Origin: Chrysoperla carnea
Taxonomy: Eukaryota > Arthropoda > Insecta > Neuroptera > Chrysopidae
DNA: 64,000 nt
Assembly (NCBI RefSeq): GCF_905475395.1
Contig: NC_058342.1
Coordinates: 37,582,640 to 37,646,639, forward strand
Direction of reading: 5' to 3'
Part shown: piece by piece, positions 996-64,000 of the stretch
Layout: the number at the start of each line of letters is the position of its first letter
Numbering within the stretch: the stretch's first letter is position 1
Notes under the pieces: model-generated
Database searches by the model: none
What the model was told of the DNA's origin: nothing
The model's input: the letters and a program-made list of their open reading frames with translations, nothing else
Made by a program: the position numbers and the translations under genes

Positions 996-3900
996 TTACC
1001 AAAATCCACCAGATGATTTACCTCCTGGAGGATTCTTAACACGTATACAAGAACGACGGTCATCAGCATCTGGATCTTCTGTAAAAAACAAATCAAAATA
1101 TATATTTGTTTCAAAGACTTAGCTAGGTAATCCAAGGCCCTAAACAAAAGTGCAAAAAAAGGCCCCCTTCGGAGAACGGCACCGTTTAGCACTTCAGTAG
1201 CTACGCCACTGATTTGTTATAGCTTAAATACCTGAAACTTACCACTACTGATTGAAAATGATGAGCTTTGTAAATTTCTTTGGCCTTCTTGTCTCGGTGC
1301 TTTCCCAATTGGTGTGCTCACACTTGAGTTGGGTAAAGTTGGCATATTATAAATAACTTCTTCTTGTGCGTTTGGTCCATTACCATTGTTAATATTTAAG
1401 TGATCCAATGTCAATTCATTTTCGTAGCTGTGCAAACGTTTTTTCTCAACAGCAGCAATATCATCATCCGTGCCATAAACGTACGGAGCAAATGGTAATG
1501 TTGGAAGAAAACGTCCATAGCCTTGTACAGCTTTTAATTCGCCTTCGTCGACACAAACACGACCATTCACTATTACGTACTCTGGTGCGCCGTGACAAAC
1601 TAATCCCTCGAATATGTTAAAATCAATTGCATGATGATGTGTTTTTGCCGATATTGTTTTCGTTTGATTTGGGTCCCAAACAATTATGTCGGCATCGGAT
1701 CCAACAGCTATGCAACCTTTTTGAGGGTATAAATTAAATAATTTTGCTGCATTTGTACTGGTGATGGCCACAAATCTAGATGGATCCATGATGCCATTTA
1801 CAACGCCTTTTTCCCATACAACGTACAAACGATCTTCAACACCATTCACACCATTTGGTATTTTTGAAAAGTCATTTTTACCAGCTGCCTTCTGTTCAGC
1901 CGTAAATGTACAGTTATCACTTCCAGTTAAGTGCAGTTTATCCCTAAATACAATATTCCAATTTAGTACTTAACGTAATAAACAAACTTTCATAGCTATA
2001 TTTTTTATAGAAAGCATACGTGGATGCGGAGACACGATGCAAATGTCTCTTGATCTTTCCTGACTTGCGTATCATATGAATTTTTCTTTATAGTATATAA
2101 AATACAATGGATCCGTTCGAAGATATTGACGCCCATGTGGTAACAATAATAAGGTCCCCTTTTTGCTACAAATTACCTATTTCTGGTGAAGAAGTTCACT
2201 GCAGGTAAATTCTAGCTTAATAAATAAATTGAATTGAAGTAAATAAGATTGATACTGGATACGACCCCGATAAAAAGCAAATCAAAATAACAAACATAAA
2301 GCATAATTTGATTTGATTTGATTTGATGAGTGTGTATTGTGTAGTTTAGTATGCAGTTTGTAGCTTGCAACAGTGTAGAGTCAAAACTATGGAGGGCAGA
2401 GATAAGGAGAGTTAGTTCCTATGTGTCCTTGTCATAGTCATATGTCATAACCATATGATGCATAGAGATTTTGTGTCTGCCACTATTATATTTGTTTTAT
2501 ACAAAGAGGTTATATACAGCTATTGAAATAAATACCACAAAACACTTGAAATAAAACCCTTCCATTTCATTTCCTGCTTTTCAGTGGACACTTTTTATAT
2601 ACTGACATGATTTTCCTTATCTCTCTCCATAGTCAAAACTTACACAAACAGCTATCATTATAGGTTTTTGTATGATAATCAACCAACTAATAAGCTATAA
2701 ACATTTACTTAATTATCCACATTTTATTAGTATTTAGTTCTTAAGTACCATACCATGATACTAAATACTAAGTAATTTTAACTTTTTTTATTTACAATTT
2801 TATATGAAAGACAGACTTTAATAAATTTTAAATTTAAAGCTGAACTGTACTTAATTTATATAATCAATTGCAAGCTAAGTAATGCTATGCAATATGCACC
2901 AACCCAGCCCAACTCAACCCATCTTACTTAATATTAGTAGTTAATTATGTACACATACACACACGAACTACACTTTACAGTATAGTACAGTTTGTTTTTA
3001 ATAAAGTACTCTTCTGTTGTTTATTTTCTAATCGATATCTACTTTAAAAGAGTCCAGTCCCATCCAGAGTCAAGATATTGATAGCGTGCCATACAATCTT
3101 GTTTAAGGTATGATTCCGATACTGTCCTCTGTGCGCTGTGTCCTCTGCTGACACAATGCGCACTGCTGATACATACCTGACTATTTCTTCTGAAGTGTCA
3201 GTTGTACATATGTATGTGTTGTTGCGTCAGCGTCAGTATTGCTCTGAGAGAGATATAGCCGCAAGGCTTTCCAAGCTTACTCACTTAAGTATACTCACTT
3301 AAGCGTCTGACGTAGTGCGACAGCCACAGCATAGGAATCATATCTTTAAAATCGTATTGGTTCTGGATTGGTTTTTTTTAGAAGGAATTAAAAAATAAAC
3401 ATCAGAATTAGTGCTAATCTGTTAAGTAAATATGAATTATTAGGTAGTTAGTTAGTTAGTTAGTAACTTACGAAGAACTGATGAAATTCATCAAGTATTC
3501 TGGAGTTGTTGGATCAGAACGTATTGGAGGTACTGTGCAACACCTCACATCGTTCTTATTGCCTACCAGTGCTAGAGAACAAGCAAGCACTTCTCCATAC
3601 ACTGGATATCCATCAGTATGTGTGTTATTCTCACAATGCGTTGATATCACATCCGCCCCATTCTTACTACTCACGTGGGCTATGTATAATGGACTGTTTA
3701 CCTATTATTTATTATTGATTTATTATTCACTTCAAATTTAAACAAACTAAAATTCATTAATTAATTAGTTATTCATTAATTATTTTCTTATTTGTTTGCA
3801 AGCAATCTGTCATTGAATTTGTTTGCAATATCAATTATATAATAATGATAGCTACCTACACTAACATTATACAATAGTTTATATAATTATTAGTATTATC

Positions 3901-6900
3901 ATTAACTGTACGTTGCAATAGCACGTATCACGTAGTACTTAGTACGTTGAACGTAGATGTTGTGTAATTGAATAAAAAATCTGAACACATTTTAGTAGGT
4001 ACATAAAATATATTTAAAAATAAATGTAAAGAGCACTCACTCAAAAACAAAAAAACAAATGCAACAAAACAAAACAAAACAAGACTAAAAAAACATAAGT
4101 AGTGTTACTTAAATGTAGTAAAGTATATTAAGTAAAGTTAGATAAAAACAAAGAAACAAAACAAAATGATTTAAAAAACAGAATAAATAAACAACAAAAT
4201 AAATTTAAAAACAAAACATAATTATTAAAAGACCTCAGTACCAACATGATTTTATTGAGCCATCACATTTCATCCATCTCAACTTAATTCGACTGAATTG
4301 AATTGAATTGAATTAAATCGAGAATGAATTAAATCATTCATAATTATTATCAAATGAATATGAATGAAATGGAAGTTTGTTAGTAAAAAATAAAACTAAA
4401 ATCAAATAAAAATGTAAAAAATGGACAAAGAACAAAATGTAAACGTACTCAGCTAAATAGTGCATAAGAATGTTGGGCGTTTCTTTATTTGGTCGTAGCG
4501 GTGGACTTAAAATGTGTCTGGCTGCATGGTACCAATCAGCGTGGTAGTAATGTGACCCATCCGTACCCAACGCAGCTGCTAAAGTTTCTCCAATTATTTT
4601 CAATTCGCTATTGTTTATTTTAAATTGGTTTAGGGCTTGCGCTGCACTTTGACTCATTACGTGAACTACATACAACGGACTCTCCACCTAAATCCATCCA
4701 TCCAAAAAGAACCAAAAAGAAACCAATTCAAAACAAAACAAAACAAAAAATGATAATAAATAAAATAAAATAAAATAAATCAAAGAGTAGTAGTAGCAGT
4801 AATAAATAGTAGATGGCAGTACTACCTACATAGTAAATAAATAAGAGAATCAAATCAGTTCAGTCAGTTCCTAATATCTATCACAGTCTCATCAAATAGA
4901 AATAGAATCATTAGTCTAGTACCTAAATCACAAGTAAATGATTCAATTCAATCACTGATCAATACAATAATACCTAGTGCTAACAATAAACACACACCTG
5001 CTTAGCAATAACACAAGCACGATTCACTGCTTCAGCTTCAACTTCTTCATTGCGTGACAGTTCGTGACCATGAGGACCAGTCACACCTTTCGCTAATAAC
5101 TTCTTAGTGTTTTCAGTGATCACATCACCGTTTTCAGCATGAACCATCGTAAGTGCTCCAATTGACTTGCAAGTATCCATTAATTGATAGATTTCTGAGT
5201 CGCGCAGTGCAAAGTTGTAAGCCATAAATAGTTTGTATGAATTGATACCATGTTTGGCAGTTAATTCTTTGATTTCATTTTTTTGTCGTTCACCCCATGA
5301 AGTGACGCACACATGCAATGCATAATCACAACATACTTTAGGATCAGCTTTTTCACGATAACGCATATAAGCTTCTAAGAGTGTTTCATCTGATCGTGGC
5401 ATCACAAAATCAACTGTTGAGAACAATAAATGAATAAATTAATTAAAACTTAATGAATTGCTATTAGAATTAGTGAGTAGTAGATAACTTGAATAAAATG
5501 TAATGTACTTACTTATGGTAGTGGTTCCACCAGCTATAGCAGCTTTAGTTCCTTGATAAAAATCATCAGCCGTTACAGAGCCCATGAATTCCATTTCAAA
5601 ATGGGTATGTGGATCAATGCCACCAGGCATTATTAATTTACCTCGAGCATCAATCACTCGTGTCCCTCCTGGTATTATTAAGTTCCTACCTAATTGTTTA
5701 ATAACACCTTCCTCAATATAAATGTCACCTTCAGCAATTCCATCTTCGTTCACGATACGTCCATTCTTGATAAGTAATCGATTTTGAGCACTCTGTTGGA
5801 TTCAAACAGAACAATTCAAATCAAAACCATTTATTTTTATAGTCGAAGTCAATAATAATCTGAGATATTATAGGGTCTAGGCATATGGCTCTAATGGGTT
5901 ACTAGAAATAGTTTAATTTAGTATATTATATGGAAAAATCGGGTTCATTTTACATTTAGACGCCTCTCTGTAATTGTTTATAATTACCACGTGTAAAAAT
6001 GAGCTTATAGATTAATAACCTTGTTTGTTTTTTGCCGCTCCTTGAATTTGACACTGGGCATAGTTCTATTTTTTTCAGCTAGGTGGATTCCTAATTTGAC
6101 GCTCAAAGCTAGCGTCAAGCGTCATCATGAAGTTACATCTTTAGAGTTAGTTACTGCATATAGTGACTAGTGACACTAGCTCCAATATAATATCCAATAA
6201 CTGTAGAATATAGAATGTAGTCACTGTTTGTTTTATTAATTAAATAATTTATTTAATTATTTATATTTTCAACGCATGTATTATACATAATTTTTTTTTT
6301 TTTGTAAATAATATCATCAATTTAATAAATTATTAAAAAATTAATTAATTAATAGATGGGATGATCATCAGAGTTTCAAATATATGCATATATAGTGTTA
6401 CTTGTATTTATATCCACTTATAACAATTTTCAACAGTCCTCTCCGCTGTGCTAAACGAAGTTGCCGTTTTCCGCCTTCGTCGAGCAAAAAAATAGTACAC
6501 ACGCCATGAGAGCAAGTAAAAGATTACTCGGATTGCATGTTCATTGTTGCCCGAAGCGAAATCGAGGGTGACAAAAAAAAAAAGAAAGCGACACTTTCAT
6601 TTATCTCAGCGGGGTAAAAGACATCTTCCAACCGGATGGTAGAAAATTTTTGAAAAAGAATATCTTGTAATTCCTCGAATTACAGATCAAAGTGGTAATA
6701 TTTCAATCATTTTCTAATCTCAGCCACAAATAATTAATCTAATTATAATAAATCTGCATTGTAAGTACTGTTATAGTTATGTCGGATTAAAAGGGGTGCC
6801 CGATTAGACGGGGACTGAATTACCACGGGTCTACTGTATACTAGCATATTTTCTCAAAGGAAAAACAGAAAGTTGGAAATTTTTAGGTAGCTACAAATAG

Positions 6901-7618
6901 TGAGTCTATTGATTCCAATTTTCATATACGTACCAAAAACCTACGAAAAAATTCCTAGAAAAATTTTCGGGGAAAAATCGTCATCATTTTATCGCAGTGA
7001 ATCTTTTTATTTTTTTAAACTTATTTTATTTATTATAATAATACATGCACTGATATTCGACACTGTCTATATAAAATATTTCAACAATTAACTTAGGCAA
7101 TTGTTGTTACTTTTTCAAAAATTTCGTTTTTGAGTTATAAAAAATATCAAAGAAAAATTCATTGAAAAAAAAATTAATAATCATTTATCAATCAGCGTTT
7201 AAAATTTTTATTCAACAGCTCAAAACATTAAGGGAAAACTTATTAAGGATTAGGGTATACGAAATACAGAGAAAAATTAATTAGCCGCCGTACTATATTG
7301 TATTTGTATGCGTATAGTACAGTACAGTATACGAGCGACATGACATACGGTATACGTACACATTAATATGGATGATATACCGGCTTCTTTTCATTGGATC
7401 AATATTTGAACTAAAAATAACAATGTTCACATGCACATTGATATTTTTATAAAATAAAATAAAATATACTAACACTAATACTAATACTCTTAACAGAGAT
7501 ACAGATTAGGTAGTTTAGGTGCTGAATACTGAATACTAAATACTAAATTATGATAATTATTATCAAAACTCACTTGTAAATGAATTGGTACTTTTTTAAC
7601 GTGTGATGTAGTCGTCAT
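996..7618 (-). CDS. CRMP: Dihydropyrimidinase / collapsin response mediator protein (CRMP), complete gene
   Basis: Coding exons, 5' to 3' on the minus strand, are 7618-7574, 5792-5513, 5413-4998, then either 4687-4449 (exon A) or 3701-3472 (exon B), then 1943-1243 and 1078-996. All junctions have GT/AG and compatible phases, giving 587 aa with A or 584 aa with B. The protein is a cyclic amidohydrolase. Dihydropyrimidinase opens dihydrouracil and dihydrothymine in pyrimidine breakdown; CRMPs are non-catalytic relatives that bind cytoskeletal proteins in neurons. The isoform with A has a full set of metal ligands by alignment of motifs: H77 and H79 (DPHTH), K169 (NSYKLFMAY), H200 (MVHAENGD), H256 (YVVHVMS) and D336 (TGSDNCTF). 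Their spacing matches the known enzyme closely. The start [15 protein letters not shown] and the end [15 protein letters not shown] are typical of insect CRMP/DHP. A single insect gene giving both products by alternative splicing is known in Drosophila. No 5' UTR exon or promoter was identified. Confidence 0.95.
2389..2630. mobile_element. MITE with a perfect 10-bp target duplication, inside a CRMP intron
   Basis: The element starts ATGGAGGGCAGAGATAAGGA and ends with the near complement TCCTTATCTCTCTCCAT. The 10-mer AGTCAAAACT lies immediately on both sides (2379-2388 and 2631-2640), a perfect target-site duplication. Length is 242 bp with no coding remnant. The 10-bp duplication would fit a Mutator-like transposase, but that is inference. 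A relative sits at 25475-25632. Confidence 0.8.
3472..3701 (-). CDS. CRMP: Alternative exon B of CRMP/dihydropyrimidinase (CRMP-like version)
   Basis: The exon is 230 nt with the same entry phase and the same two-base exit (TC) as exon A. It begins [19 protein letters not shown], clearly homologous to the start of A, and ends [20 protein letters not shown]. The middle has diverged: the GTDGSHY block of exon A is replaced by [10 protein letters not shown] followed by a CC pair, and [10 protein letters not shown] matches the VVYGEP block of CRMPs. The flanks are a good acceptor (TAATAG) and the donor GTAAGT. I infer that it makes the non-enzymatic CRMP isoform. It still carries the histidine aligned with metal ligand H256. 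Confidence 0.88.
4449..4687 (-). CDS. CRMP: Alternative exon A of CRMP/dihydropyrimidinase (enzyme-like version)
   Basis: The exon is 239 nt, enters in phase 0 after AAG-CAG and leaves two bases (GA) of a split codon. It encodes [19 protein letters not shown] and then [19 protein letters not shown], ending [21 protein letters not shown]. The GTDGSHY block and the HAARH..PPLRP stretch are what family members with dihydropyrimidinase activity look like, and the metal-ligand histidine in VVHV is present. I infer that this is the enzyme-form exon. It is the upstream member of the pair and is separated from exon B by a 747-nt intron. Confidence 0.88.
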
Positions 7619-8633
7619 TTTTAAAATAAAAACTTTTAATATTTATTTAATATGAATATGAATAATAATAATTAAGTAAATCACAATTAACTTCACTTCC
7701 TGCTTGATATTTTTAATATTACAAACACATGCACATACACCACACACAGAGGTAGCAGAGCTGGATACTTGTACTAGTACTAGTACTACTGTTAATGTAC
7801 TGTAGCTGTTGCTGTAGGACTGGTAGATGAGATGGAAAAGTATAGTCTAGGTTCCAGGTGCTATACTTCTAGGTGTACTGATGATGGGTTAATCTATAAC
7901 AATCAACAAAAACATAATTTTATTTATTAAATCTAATCTAATATTATTTATATTATTTTTAAACTGTATTGTATCTAAATAAATAAATAATGTTAACTAT
8001 TAATAATAATAAATAAGTTTAGTTTAAAAGATACAAAATAATTTTAATAAATTAACAATACAATTAAATTAACAATACATTTGTATTGTTAATTTATTTT
8101 TAATATTATATAATAAATATATAACACGTTTACATTTCATTTATTATTATTAAGGTATATTTTTATATTTATTTGTTAATATCTTATCTTATTTAAATAA
8201 AAATTTTATATGATTTTATTACTTTTGATTTTGAACGTCACAGTCACTTCACAATACACAACACACAACGCTGAACACCTCACAACTCTTTTATTCTTTA
8301 CTGTTCACTGTTCACTGCTCTCTGAATCTCTACTCTCTGGCTCTGCTCACTGCTAGTGAGTGCTTCGTGTTTGAATAGTGTCAGTGGATATTCTATATTC
8401 ATAAAATGTATAGCTTTACCCCCTGTGTGATGTGAATATGGATGTGATGTGATGTGACTTCAACTTCGTTCCGTTCACAGTTGTGTGTACAATCGAAATC
8501 GATTATAGTGAAATTGAATTACGACGTCAAATTGGATGTTACGAGCAATAGGCAAGATTTATGTTAAACTAAATACAAATGTCAAACATATTGAAAACAT
8601 GAACGAGTTCACAGAAAATTTCTGTTAAAATTC

Positions 8634-8851
8634 ATAGAGATAATACCATAGAGTTGCAAACGGTTGATCTTTCGAACGTCGTCCAAACGGTTGCTTGCAG
8701 TAGAACAAGACAGATAAAATAGGCACATATAACTGCTTTCGCCTCTCTTATACACCTATAATTTCTCACTCTTTCTTCTTCTCTCACAGCGGTCAAGAAT
8801 TCACTTATTGCGTTTCCTATGTCTATACAGCTCTATGGTATTATCTCTATG
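8634..8851. mobile_element. MITE, ATAGAGATAATACCATAGAG family, copy 1
   Basis: Terminal inverted repeats of about 20 bp (ATAGAGATAATACCATAGAG and its near complement CTCTATGGTATTATCTCTAT) bound a 218-bp element. The interior holds TCTCTTATACACCTAT and GAATTCACTTATTGCG. Related sequence recurs at 14060-14152, 17921-18073 and 27413-27616, so this is a family active in this genome. No open reading frame is visible. Confidence 0.72.
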
Positions 8852-10550
8852 GATAAATTGCATTTAAAATGAACATGCTTTCAATTGAAATAAGCAATGA
8901 CTACTAATTGATATCTTTCCTTAAATCTCCTGCCCTTAGAACCTAGAAAAGTGCCGAGAACAAAGTTATTTCTATTATTTCGTATTGCGAATGCGAAAAT
9001 TCGCCCCATCACAAATACTAATAAATATGCAATTGACGTTTATTATGTCTAACATTTATTAATAATCTAATCTCATTTATGAGTAAAAAGTAATTTACTT
9101 AATCATTTAAGCTTTGTATATTTTTTATTTTAGGTACTTTTACTGTTATCTCTATACTTTATTAACCAAAAAGTTGTTTTTATTAATTTATGTTTGTTAA
9201 ATCTTTTAATGGACATTTTATATTTCACTGATCTTATGTTATTTTTATTTTGTAAATGCGCTTATCAGTAGGAGATAATTGGTCATATTACCCATAAAAA
9301 TGTACTTGTTACCATGACAAAATTTGAGTGAAAGTGAAATTAAAATTGATTAAAAAACGAAGAAGTTATAAGCAACCAAAGATTGCATTCAAAAGTTGCC
9401 CAAAGATTTATATGTCATCTCTATGGTGATACCATAGATAAAATAATAGTACTATTACAATATCTTTGGGTGATACTCACGTATGACGTCCCTAGTGGGT
9501 ATCTTCCTAATTTTGTTCCGTTACCTTTTTCAACGTAGTCAAATGAACTAATTTTGAGTGTAGTTAGTTAAGTTAGTTAAATACATTTACAGTAGCTGTA
9601 CCTACTATACTATCAACTACCTACTATTTACTACCTAATATACATAATAACTGTACTATATACGTAGGTAATATGTATTTACTGTTGTATGTAATATAAG
9701 TATGGTATGGCATGCATTTAGTTGTCACCGCGTGTAAAGTGTACTTAAAGCATTGTATTTCTTCCATTTTCATCTTTATTTTTATGCGCTTACATTATCT
9801 AACATTTATATAACATTACATATTGGGAGTTGAGTTGATGTTAGTTTGTTGAGTTTAGTTTTAGTCTATTCTATGCAAACAATCAATTTATGTTAGTTCA
9901 ACTGTTACATCACAATCATAATTATGATTATTCAAATTTTAATAGTTTAGCTACTTTGAATCGATTTTTTATTCATTACATTGATTCAATTGATTTATTT
10001 TATACAGCAGTTAAATCCATCTTGATTTAAATAAAAAATTAGTATTTAATTATGCACGAACACAACTCGACTTACATTTAGGGGAAACATAAATGTAGTT
10101 CCTATATGCTAATGAGTAATAAGTAATCAGCAGTGGCGGCGCGCCATTTGAGAGCAGTTGTCCAGCAACAATCGGAAACAAAAAACTTTTTTACGATTTC
10201 TTGCAATTTTTTTAAGGGGTACCCTTAGAAAAATTGATTTTTTTCTACAGATTTTGATAAAACTTAGTTTATAAGGCTAATTTGACCCCAAATATTCAAG
10301 TTTTATTTGACGATAGAGCAAATAGTTTTTAAGATATCGCTCAATTCAAAGCAATTTCATAAAATATCTCGAAAATTACTCATTTAATGATCAAATAAAC
10401 ACGATTTTTGTAATTTTCGGGTCAAAATTACCTTAAAAACTTAGTTTTATCGAAATCGGAAACAAAAAATTTTTTTACATTTTTTGCAATTTGTAAAAAT
10501 CCAAAAAATCATAAAAAATTCAATAAAACACAATTTTTGTAATTTTATGT

Positions 10551-10832
10551 TAGGTTGGGTTGGGTTGGGTTGGGTTAGGTTGGGTTAGGTTGGGTTAGGT
10601 TGGGTTAGGTTGGGTTAGGTTGGGTTAGGTTGGGTTAGGTTGGGTTAGGTTGGGTTAGGTTGGGTTAGGTTGGGTTAGGTTGGGTTAGGTTGGGTTGGGT
10701 TGGGTTAGGTTGGGTTAGGTTGGGTTGGGTTGGGTTGGGTTGGGTTGGGTTGGGTTGGGTTGAGTTAGGTTAGGTTGGGTTGGGTTAGGTTGGGTTAGGC
10801 TGGGTTAGGCTGGGTTAGGTTGGGTTGGGTTG
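10551..10832 (+). repeat. Telomere-like decamer array (TTAGGTTGGG)n
   Basis: About 280 bp of tandem TTAGGTTGGG, with runs where TTGGG alone repeats. It is uninterrupted apart from single substitutions such as TTGAG and TTAGGC. TTAGG is the ancestral arthropod telomere motif; here it alternates with TTGGG, so this is an internal, degenerate, telomere-like satellite. It runs directly into the GTGGGW array that follows. Long reading frames across it are low-complexity artefacts. Confidence 0.9.
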
Positions 10833-60717: not shown

Positions 60718-61108
60718 ATTTAACAACAACAAAAATTAAATCAACAATCAACAGACAACAAACATGCATATAAACATGTTTAGTACAATAACGTGTTTAA
60801 TAGAACAACAATTAACTTACTGTTTATTAGCAACAACAATAAAGTGCAATATTCAAATAAACAATAACACCTAACTAAACTACATCACATTATTCAATAA
60901 ATGTAACTAAAGCTGTCACTGTAACTGTACTGTAATCTGTAACTTAATAATAATAAATAGTCACGTAACACTTAATTAGCTAACTCGCTAAGCTACCTTC
61001 ATCAAGTGCAATGCAGTACAGTGCAGTGTAATAATAATAGAGCTTTACAGTAACAGTGACTGACTGTAACTGTAAGTGTAACTGTAATTATAACTGCTCA
61101 AAGGTAAA
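60718..61108 (+). promoter_or_regulatory. Putative 5' UTR of the mGluR gene with three upstream ORFs
   Basis: A polypyrimidine tract and AG (TTTGTTTGTTTCAG, ending 60717) look like a splice acceptor, so the UTR probably begins here. Between it and the mGluR start lie three ATGs that open short frames: 60764-60874 (36 codons), 60901-60906 (ATG-TAA) and 61011-61031 (six codons). All close before the main start. They could limit translation. The acceptor is inferred without transcript evidence. Confidence 0.45.
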
Positions 61109-62271
61109 ATGTTACAAGTTAAATTACTGCGATCCTTAATATTCGTTATAATTATATTCCATGCCAGGCAGAGCTGGCAAGAACAAGGATCAATCAATCT
61201 TCCAGGAGATATAATACTGGGTGGTCTGTTTCCGGTACATGAAAAAGGTGATAAATCGCCATGCGGTCGAAAAATCTATAACCGTGGTGTACAACGATTA
61301 GAAGCGATGATGTTTGCAGTTGATAAAATCAATAAAGACAAAAACATTTTACCGAACATCACACTTGGCGTAAACATTTTGGACACCTGTTCACGAGATA
61401 CTTACGCACTCAATCAGAGTTTAGAATTCGTACGTGCCAGTTTAAATAACTTAGATACAACTGCATACGAATGTTTGGACAATTCGTTACCGAAACCAAA
61501 AAAAAATAACACTGGACCTGTTGTTGGTGTTATTGGTGGCTCCTACAGTTCGGTATCTTTACAAGTCGCTAACTTATTGCGATTGTTTCACATTCCGCAA
61601 ATTTCACCAGCATCGACCGCTAAAGCACTTAGTGATAAAACAAGGTTCGATTACTTTGCACGAACTGTTCCGCCTGACACTTATCAATCCATTGCTCTAG
61701 TTGACATCGTAAAAAGTGTTAATTGGTCCTACATTTCGACGATATATTCGGAAGGTTCTTACGGTGAAAACGGAATTGAAGTTTTCCATAAAGAAGCGCA
61801 AGAACGTAACGTGTGCATTGCTACCGCAGAGAAGGTGCCAAGCACGGCTGACGATCACGACTTTGATTTAATCATTGCTAAGCTGAAAAAGAAAGGTAAC
61901 GCTAAAGGTGTTGTACTGTTTACACGCGCAGAAGATGCACGCCGCCTGTTACAGGCGGCAAAACGATCAAACATGACAAATCATACACTGTACTGGATTG
62001 CAAGCGATGGATGGGGCAAACAACAAAAACTAGTCGAAGGTGTCGAATCAGTGGCTGAAGGGGCCATCACCGTGGAATTACAATCTACTCATGTGCCAGG
62101 CTTTGATGAGTACATGAAGTCTTTAACACCAGAAAATAATGCACGCAATCCATGGTTCGAAGAATACTGGGAGGAGATATTTGAATGCACTTTGGAAAAA
62201 AATGTACCATTAACTACGAATCAGAGTCTCAAGATGTGTGGTCCACATTTAAGATTAAATGAGCGTGTTGG
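61109..62271 (+). CDS. mGluR: Metabotropic glutamate receptor, first coding exon (N-terminal ligand-binding domain), partial
   Basis: The exon is 1163 nt, ends in phase 2 at the donor GGGTAAGT, and encodes 387 full codons plus two bases. A signal peptide (LLRSLIFVIIIFHA, about residues 6-19) precedes the Venus-flytrap domain from about residue 33 (GDIILGGLFPVHEKG). This class C G-protein-coupled receptor senses glutamate at synapses. By alignment of motifs with vertebrate mGluRs the binding residues are all present: R59 and R63 (YNRGVQRLEAM), S147 (GGSYSSVS), T170 (SPASTAK), D190 (VPPDTYQ), Y218 (EGSYGENG) and D300 (ASDGWG). Two arginines at 59 and 63, with GGSYSSVSLQVANLL, favour the group II type, equivalent to Drosophila mGluRA rather than the divergent mXR type, which lacks glutamate contacts. 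Six potential N-glycosylation sites are visible (N83, N102, N133, N205, N288, N371). The cysteine-rich and seven-transmembrane parts must lie beyond 64000; no further exon was found up to there. Confidence 0.95.
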
Positions 62272-64000
62272 GTAAGTTGATTTTCATTTCACTATTGTTT
62301 ACCACCTAATTTTAAAAAAAACTAATTTAAATTCCCAACTACCTCTCAAAAAACGGGGTTAGAAATAAAAATAAAATTTGAATTAAAGACAAACTTCATT
62401 TCATTCAAAATTATTTGATAAAGTAACAACAAGTGTTTAGTGTGTTGCATCTTTATGGCAGCCAACCAAATTTTTTTTATATAGAAACCACTTAAATCAC
62501 TTAAAAGTTTATTCAATAATTATAAACTAAAAATAAAAGAAATTTTAAATATTTACGAATTTATCCTTCTGTTATTTATAGAAATAACGATTTGAAATTT
62601 TGCATAATGCATGTCATACAGGGGGATGGATAATATGAGTTGAAGGAACAGGAATAATAGATAGTTGGGTTTAGATTGAATTGATAAATTTTAAAGAATT
62701 GAATATATATTTAAGAACAGTATGTACGAATAACATTTTAAAACAAACTTTGATTTTATTTAATGTTAAACTGAACAACAAACACACGCACATATAAAGT
62801 ATCTGCTGTCTACTATCTAGATTCTAGATATACATCATAGATCACACACAGCTAGTAAGTGAACCCAACGAATATAAGATAGAGGAGAAGTCTCCCATTA
62901 CCCATTACATGTTATAAAAGAATATACTAGTTTCAATAGTGTTTCACCGAGACTACGAGGCAGCCTCACCTCGCCTCGATGCCTCCGTAACTGAGGCAAA
63001 AGGTGAGAATCAAAATTTTAAGCCTCGTTACTAACCGGGAGAGGCGAGATACACTATTCCAAAAACCAAGGTGTGGGGATGCGAATGTTCTTTTTATTTC
63101 GAATGGTTTTTTGGGAATGCGAATATTAAAAAATACGTGAATATTCGTCCCATCACTAATACTTTTTATACAACAAACTACATACCTACATATACCTACC
63201 TATCTATATATCTATCCAAAAAAAACATTAGCTGCTTGCTGCTGGCTGCTGGCTGCCTTGTAGCTGCTACAGTGCTACGTGATTGAACTGAACTGAACTG
63301 AAGCAAGATTGAAATGACACAACAGTTATTATATAACATTGTTTGTAGGAAGCAGGTACTGTAGTCGATAATAAATACCTTAACCTTACGTATACCTTGC
63401 AATATACAATGCGTTACCTCATACCCTACAATAACAATTTATATTTACATGGATCACAGCAACAAAACGAAATGGAATGAAAAAACTATTAAGGTATTTC
63501 GATACCGAAAGAATGAAAATGATTCAAAAAAATTTGTAAAATTTATTTATCAATTAATCATCCTTTTATACGACTTTTGTGAAAAATTCATATCGATTGG
63601 TATGATGAGTACGGATTATGAAAAATTGATTATCAAAGCCAGTTTTTTTTCCAAAAAAGGGCACCTTTCTCATAAACCGTATATGAATTTTTCACAAAAG
63701 ACCTATACAAGCATGATTAATTGATAAAATTTTAGATGTAATCATTTTCATTCCAACTATTTAAGGTATTTCGATACTGTAAATTAAAAATGATACCAAA
63801 AAATTGAAATTTTATTTATCCATTAATCATCTTTTTATACGTCTTTTGTTAGAAATGTTAGGAGAACACGTTTCAAAAATAGTTTCAATTGTTAAAAAGT
63901 TAACATTCGCATTCGCATTTGCGAATATTGGAAACAAACGAACGCATTCGTTCCATCACTATCATCTAGAACTACGTTGACACTGACACTTAAGTGTAGA
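62272..64000. other. First visible intron of the mGluR gene, partial
   Basis: No exon was recognised. The intron contains hAT-type termini at about 63146-63158 and 63949-63961 with GCGAATATT tracts, a GCCTC-rich patch at 62945-63055, and three copies of one repeat at 63490-63865. It runs off the window. Confidence 0.5.
63490..63865. repeat. Three copies of a 100-bp repeat, direct-inverted-direct
   Basis: Copy 1 (63490-63600) reads TTAAGGTATTTCGATACCGA then ATCATCCTTTTATACGACTT. Copy 2 (63675-63773) is the reverse complement: CATATGAATTT-like AACCGTATATGAATTTTTCA then TCACAAAAGACC and TTGATAAAATTTTAGATG. Copy 3 (63762-63865) is direct again: TTAAGGTATTTCGATACTGT and TAATCATCTTTTTATACGTC. The 91-codon frame at 63449-63724 crosses these copies and is not a gene. 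Confidence 0.6.

Follow-up and report, generated by a model that had tools for sequence, protein, structure and literature searches.

Are the stop codons that appear when two alternative exons are wrongly joined a device selected to enforce the choice between them, or do they simply come with the exons? The question is raised by a gene of the dihydropyrimidinase (DHP)/CRMP family in the window, a stretch of 64,000 nucleotides of Chrysoperla carnea DNA. In this gene an internal exon exists in two versions, here called A and B. The coding exons and the intron between the two versions are, in the order in which the gene is read:

7574..7618, minus strand: exon 1, coding part from the ATG, 45 nt, open, phase 0, donor GTGAGT
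5513..5792, minus strand: exon 2, 280 nt, placed by splice sites and frame; encodes DPHTHFE (HxH motif, residue 75) in both isoforms
4998..5413, minus strand: exon 3, 416 nt, common upstream neighbour of exons A and B; encodes SYKLFMAY (residue 167) and VHAENGD (residue 199)
4449..4687, minus strand: exon A, 239 nt, the dihydropyrimidinase-like alternative, 39 of 77 residues identical to the human DHP segment
3702..4448, minus strand: intron A-B, 747 nt, GT-AG, no U12 donor or branch motif found
3472..3701, minus strand: exon B, 230 nt, the diverged alternative, 33 of 70 residues identical to the human DHP segment
1243..1943, minus strand: exon 5, 701 nt, common downstream neighbour, whose first codons give the double-skip stop
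996..1078, minus strand: last coding exon, 83 nt, ending in TAA

The introns are GT-AG at the borders of the coding exons. Exons A and B are both entered in phase 0 and left with two bases over, and their lengths of 239 and 230 nt differ by a multiple of three. Used singly, each yields a reading frame with one terminal stop, giving a protein of 587 amino acids with A alone and of 584 with B alone. Because each exon length leaves a remainder of two when divided by three, use of both or of neither shifts the frame, and a premature stop is present in either case. Exon A ends in GA and exon B begins GTAAAC, so that their junction reads GAG TAA. Omission of both alternatives joins the terminal CAG of exon 3 to the initial GGATAA of exon 5, which reads CAG GGA TAA. 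The exon coordinates, phases and both junction reads given in an initial annotation of this DNA proved exact to the base, and its claim that only single inclusion keeps the frame open holds to the last codon of both isoforms.

The initial annotation had also called the two exons homologous, and their similarity is beyond chance. The encoded segments align over their whole length with 25 of 82 positions identical (BLASTP, E 1e-11), and their Smith-Waterman score is 97, whereas shuffling B 2,000 times never gave more than 42. A tblastn search with A and B found no third copy in the 64-kb window, where other matches had E values of 0.54 or worse. Searches for relatives of exons A and B among viral contigs, and of 438 aa of isoform A among genome contigs, likewise gave none; as the contigs searched come from viruses and prokaryotes, this is uninformative on insects.

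We consider it very probable that this is a tandemly duplicated exon in an insect DHP/CRMP gene that is spliced, at the RNA level, as a mutually exclusive pair. By this account, an exon would have been duplicated in tandem within a single gene and become such a pair; inclusion of exon A would give the dihydropyrimidinase form, and inclusion of exon B, which has a weak acceptor, would give an alternative, CRMP-type form, probably in neurons if the analogy with Drosophila discussed below holds. A transcript with both exons or neither would lose the frame at once and would probably be removed by nonsense-mediated decay, and the junction stops would follow incidentally from the exon lengths and from codons rich in A and T, with no separate device involved.

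It is worth considering that exon B might instead be a decaying, unused copy, with the gene making the DHP form only. Exon B is certainly diverged, 7 residues having been lost from the family's W..W segment, which is invariant in five references, and 8 of the 25 bases ahead of its acceptor AG are pyrimidines, compared with 12 to 17 in the other five introns. However, its 76 codons are open, a state that survives in 26 of 5,000 dinucleotide shuffles (32 of 5,000 for exon A; shuffled intron pieces are open in 19 of 5,000), its splice sites are GT-AG and its phases match those of A. In an alignment with five solved relatives, 20 human DHP residues are common to both exons, while a further 19 survive in A alone and 13 in B alone. 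The five references agree throughout at 30 columns, of which 21 are preserved in A and 16 in B. That B retains 13 residues that A has lost argues against simple decay, which we regard as quite improbable. For a mutually exclusive pair, the weak acceptor suggests that A is the default and that B needs an activator, as described for FGFR2 exon 8 in passages of PMC2880598. The likeness to FGFR2 exons 8/9 (IIIb/IIIc) extends, so far as those passages go, to a mutually exclusive pair with a weak acceptor in one of its exons, with the difference that the weak acceptor belongs to the upstream exon (exon 8) in FGFR2 and to the downstream exon (B) here.

The assignment of the gene to the dihydropyrimidinase/CRMP family, also made in the initial annotation, is supported by the dihydropyrimidinase model TIGR02033, for which isoform A scores 564.9 bits and isoform B 535.6 bits, both above the cut-off of 393.25 bits. 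The best solved relative of the isoforms is human DHP (2vr2). The segment encoded by exon B scores 53.8 to 55.9 bits against DHPs (three best distinct sequences), as compared with 41.7 bits and below against DPYSL3 and CRMP2 and 39.0 bits against the Dictyostelium DHP.

In Drosophila, CRMP isoforms exclude exon 9a or exon 9b (Morris et al. 2012, via excerpts of PMC8652244), and the same excerpts describe the 9a form as non-neuronal, DPYS-like and functional in pyrimidine catabolism and the 9b form as neuronal and CRMP-like. Parts of PMC7954323 list CRMP among the genes with mutually exclusive exons and report a change of a zinc-binding His to Gly in one Drosophila isoform. To the extent covered by these sources, the present gene resembles Drosophila CRMP in that one gene would supply DHP-like and CRMP-like proteins by a choice between two homologous internal exons, and on this analogy the A/B pair is likely the counterpart of exons 9a/9b. 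It differs in that exon B keeps the aligned metal-ligand His, set against the His-to-Gly change given in those excerpts for one Drosophila isoform, a comparison in which the residue numbering is not matched. The gene adds one more insect genome, an AT-rich one, to those in which a DHP/CRMP exon pair is documented.

The difference at the metal site deserves closer attention. We take the metal ligands of dihydropyrimidinase to be HxH, Lys, His, His and Asp, as in the family, and we assume likewise that the HxH motif DPHTHFE in exon 2 belongs to the metal site. The motifs DPHTH, SYKLF, VHAEN, YVVHV or YIAHV, and GSDNC are all present in both isoforms. The His of YIAHV in exon B aligns with a metal-ligand His of DHP; CRMP2 and DPYSL3 carry Lys at that position. 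Those two proteins also have Ala in place of the Asp of GSDNC, which exon 5 keeps. By alignment, and with the ligands so taken, each of the six metal ligands has a matching residue in isoform B; the loss of ligands that marks a vertebrate-type CRMP is absent from it, both the His and the Asp being kept. Because exon B keeps this His and its segment matches DHPs with better scores than vertebrate CRMPs, the CRMP label for B rests on analogy. Furthermore, if the B form is non-enzymatic, it would be so by a route other than that of the vertebrate CRMPs, since all six ligand residues are matched and it is 7 residues near W..W that are missing. One may go further and suppose that the B isoform is a metal-binding enzyme, or a binding protein with a different substrate, and not a dead CRMP; the putative metal site, which appears complete, and the pocket segment, which appears rebuilt and shortened, invite this idea, although we think it improbable. 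Were it true, insects would have acquired the CRMP role with the metal site intact, in contrast to vertebrates. The metal site kept in exon B bears on the separate turn from catabolic enzyme to neuronal protein in insects and in vertebrates.

With the exon pair characterized, the junction stops themselves can be weighed. They might have been selected as a fail-safe that halts translation at the first possible codon, and both stops are in fact the second codon of the aberrant read. To gauge this, exon B and exon 5 were rewritten 20,000 times in synonymous codons, drawn according to the usage of this gene (third-position GC 28%), a choice that brings a mild circularity because the usage comes from the same gene. 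A stop as early as the observed one or earlier occurred in 60.0% of recodings for double inclusion, in 80.3% for the double skip and in 48.4% for both together, and every one of the 20,000 recodings had a stop somewhere. Without the junction stop, the next stop of the A+B read comes five codons later, and a doubled exon A, which can stand in for a fresh duplication, stops 7 codons past the junction. As a broader control, skipping or doubling exon 2, 3, A or 5 in isoform A puts a stop between 1 and 22 codons beyond the new junction. Moreover, the stop of the double skip (GGA TAA) is independent of the exon duplication, because the upstream and downstream exons form it by themselves. The junction stops thus lie within chance expectation for the residues encoded and the codon usage of this gene. 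The recodings, together with the exon skipping and doubling, indicate that the stops are what the gene would show without selection on them, while leaving room for weak selection. A special design of the junction stops is rejected on the 48% joint chance, and selection of the pair as a fail-safe seems to us very improbable. The recodings show that no special selection is needed for junction stops in exon pairs of this kind.

The initial annotation had further presented the double stop as something special and not previously described, a view that does not survive comparison with the literature. Pairs of mutually exclusive exons that shift the frame when both are included or both are skipped are described in sections of PMC11062102. 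PMC5740500 (section 7) counts 377 human mutually exclusive clusters (60%) whose lengths are not multiples of three, and joining reads are reported for 83 (22%) of those 377. Nonsense-mediated decay is named as one contributor to mutual exclusion in excerpts of PMC6071210, which also cite Jones 2001 for the FGFR2 double-inclusion form as a target of this decay, a form that PMC2880598, in its excerpted text, designs around. Since frame-shifting pairs or nonsense-mediated decay are reported in these parts of PMC11062102, PMC5740500 and PMC6071210, the fail-safe has been described in general, as a class of exons that meet a premature stop on double inclusion or double skipping because their lengths do not divide by three. 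The human clusters are alike in losing the frame on combined inclusion (the 377, or 60%); the present case is an insect gene. Our literature search on the general idea found no earlier notice of a stop exactly at this gene's junction.

Whatever their origin, the stops have a predictable consequence. By the usual type of criterion for nonsense-mediated decay, a stop more than 50 nt upstream of a later exon junction, both qualify by position: the distance to the next exon junction is 226 nt for A+B and 695 nt for the skip. Decay of the aberrant transcripts is therefore expected. For FGFR2, according to the excerpts cited above, decay of the double-inclusion form was demonstrated experimentally; for the present, unrelated gene it is predicted from the position of the stops.

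Joint use of A and B could also be prevented before decay comes into play. One such scheme is exclusion through competition between intron pairings of the docking-site and selector-site type, of which insect Dscam and 14-3-3zeta are examples. The strongest duplex, of -22.6 kcal/mol, joins introns A-B and B-5, and 2 of 60 shuffles were as low; the best for introns 3-A and A-B has -18.9 kcal/mol (12 of 200 shuffles) and that for introns 3-A and B-5 has -20.7 kcal/mol (21 of 100), in a scan whose window step of 8 could miss or clip duplexes. None of these stands out once three tests and AT-rich DNA are allowed for, however, and the evidence for intron pairing is suggestive at best; we judge the scheme unlikely, if less so than the other alternatives weighed here. 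It is compatible with, rather than opposed to, the account of a mutually exclusive pair.

Steric hindrance and incompatibility between U2 and U12 splice sites are both known routes to mutual exclusion (so described in PMC5740500), and either might bar the joining of A to B. Yet at 747 nt the A-B intron exceeds the length at which simple steric exclusion would operate, and no U12 motifs were seen in introns 3-A, A-B and B-5, which are all GT-AG; hence both steric exclusion and spliceosome mismatch are unlikely, to the point that we give them hardly any credence. The splicing-regulator motifs TTTTTTT, TTTTG, TGCATG and GCATG showed no clear excess in introns 3-A, A-B and B-5, the top count being that of TTTTG in intron A-B (10, compared with a shuffle mean of 6.58, and reached in 17 of 200 shuffles).

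Several features of the surrounding DNA may be recorded. Just past the 3′ end of the gene lies an inverted repeat (63-228 / 286-451) with 166-nt arms that are 88% complementary and 57 nt apart, which looks like a foldback or MITE-type element. Upstream of the gene, a shorter inverted repeat (8630-8656 / 8828-8854; 27 nt, 93% complementary, 171 nt apart) is possibly another small element of the inverted-repeat kind. Tandem TTAGGTTGGG repeats occupy 10545-10832 and continue as TGGGTG repeats to 11278. The TTAGGTTGGG array, an interstitial telomere-like array, is close to the telomere motif TTAGGTTGGGG, which is confirmed in Bombus according to passages of PMC9841428. On the minus strand, 44504-44621 matches U4 spliceosomal RNA over the whole model (69.8 bits). 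An open frame on the plus strand at 16697-17254 matches glycosyltransferase family 43 (PF03360, E 2.3e-35), which we take to be a family of glucuronosyltransferases, and another at 61094-62275, also on the plus strand and 393 aa long, matches the receptor ligand-binding family PF01094 (E 1.2e-73) and looks like an exon of a metabotropic glutamate receptor.
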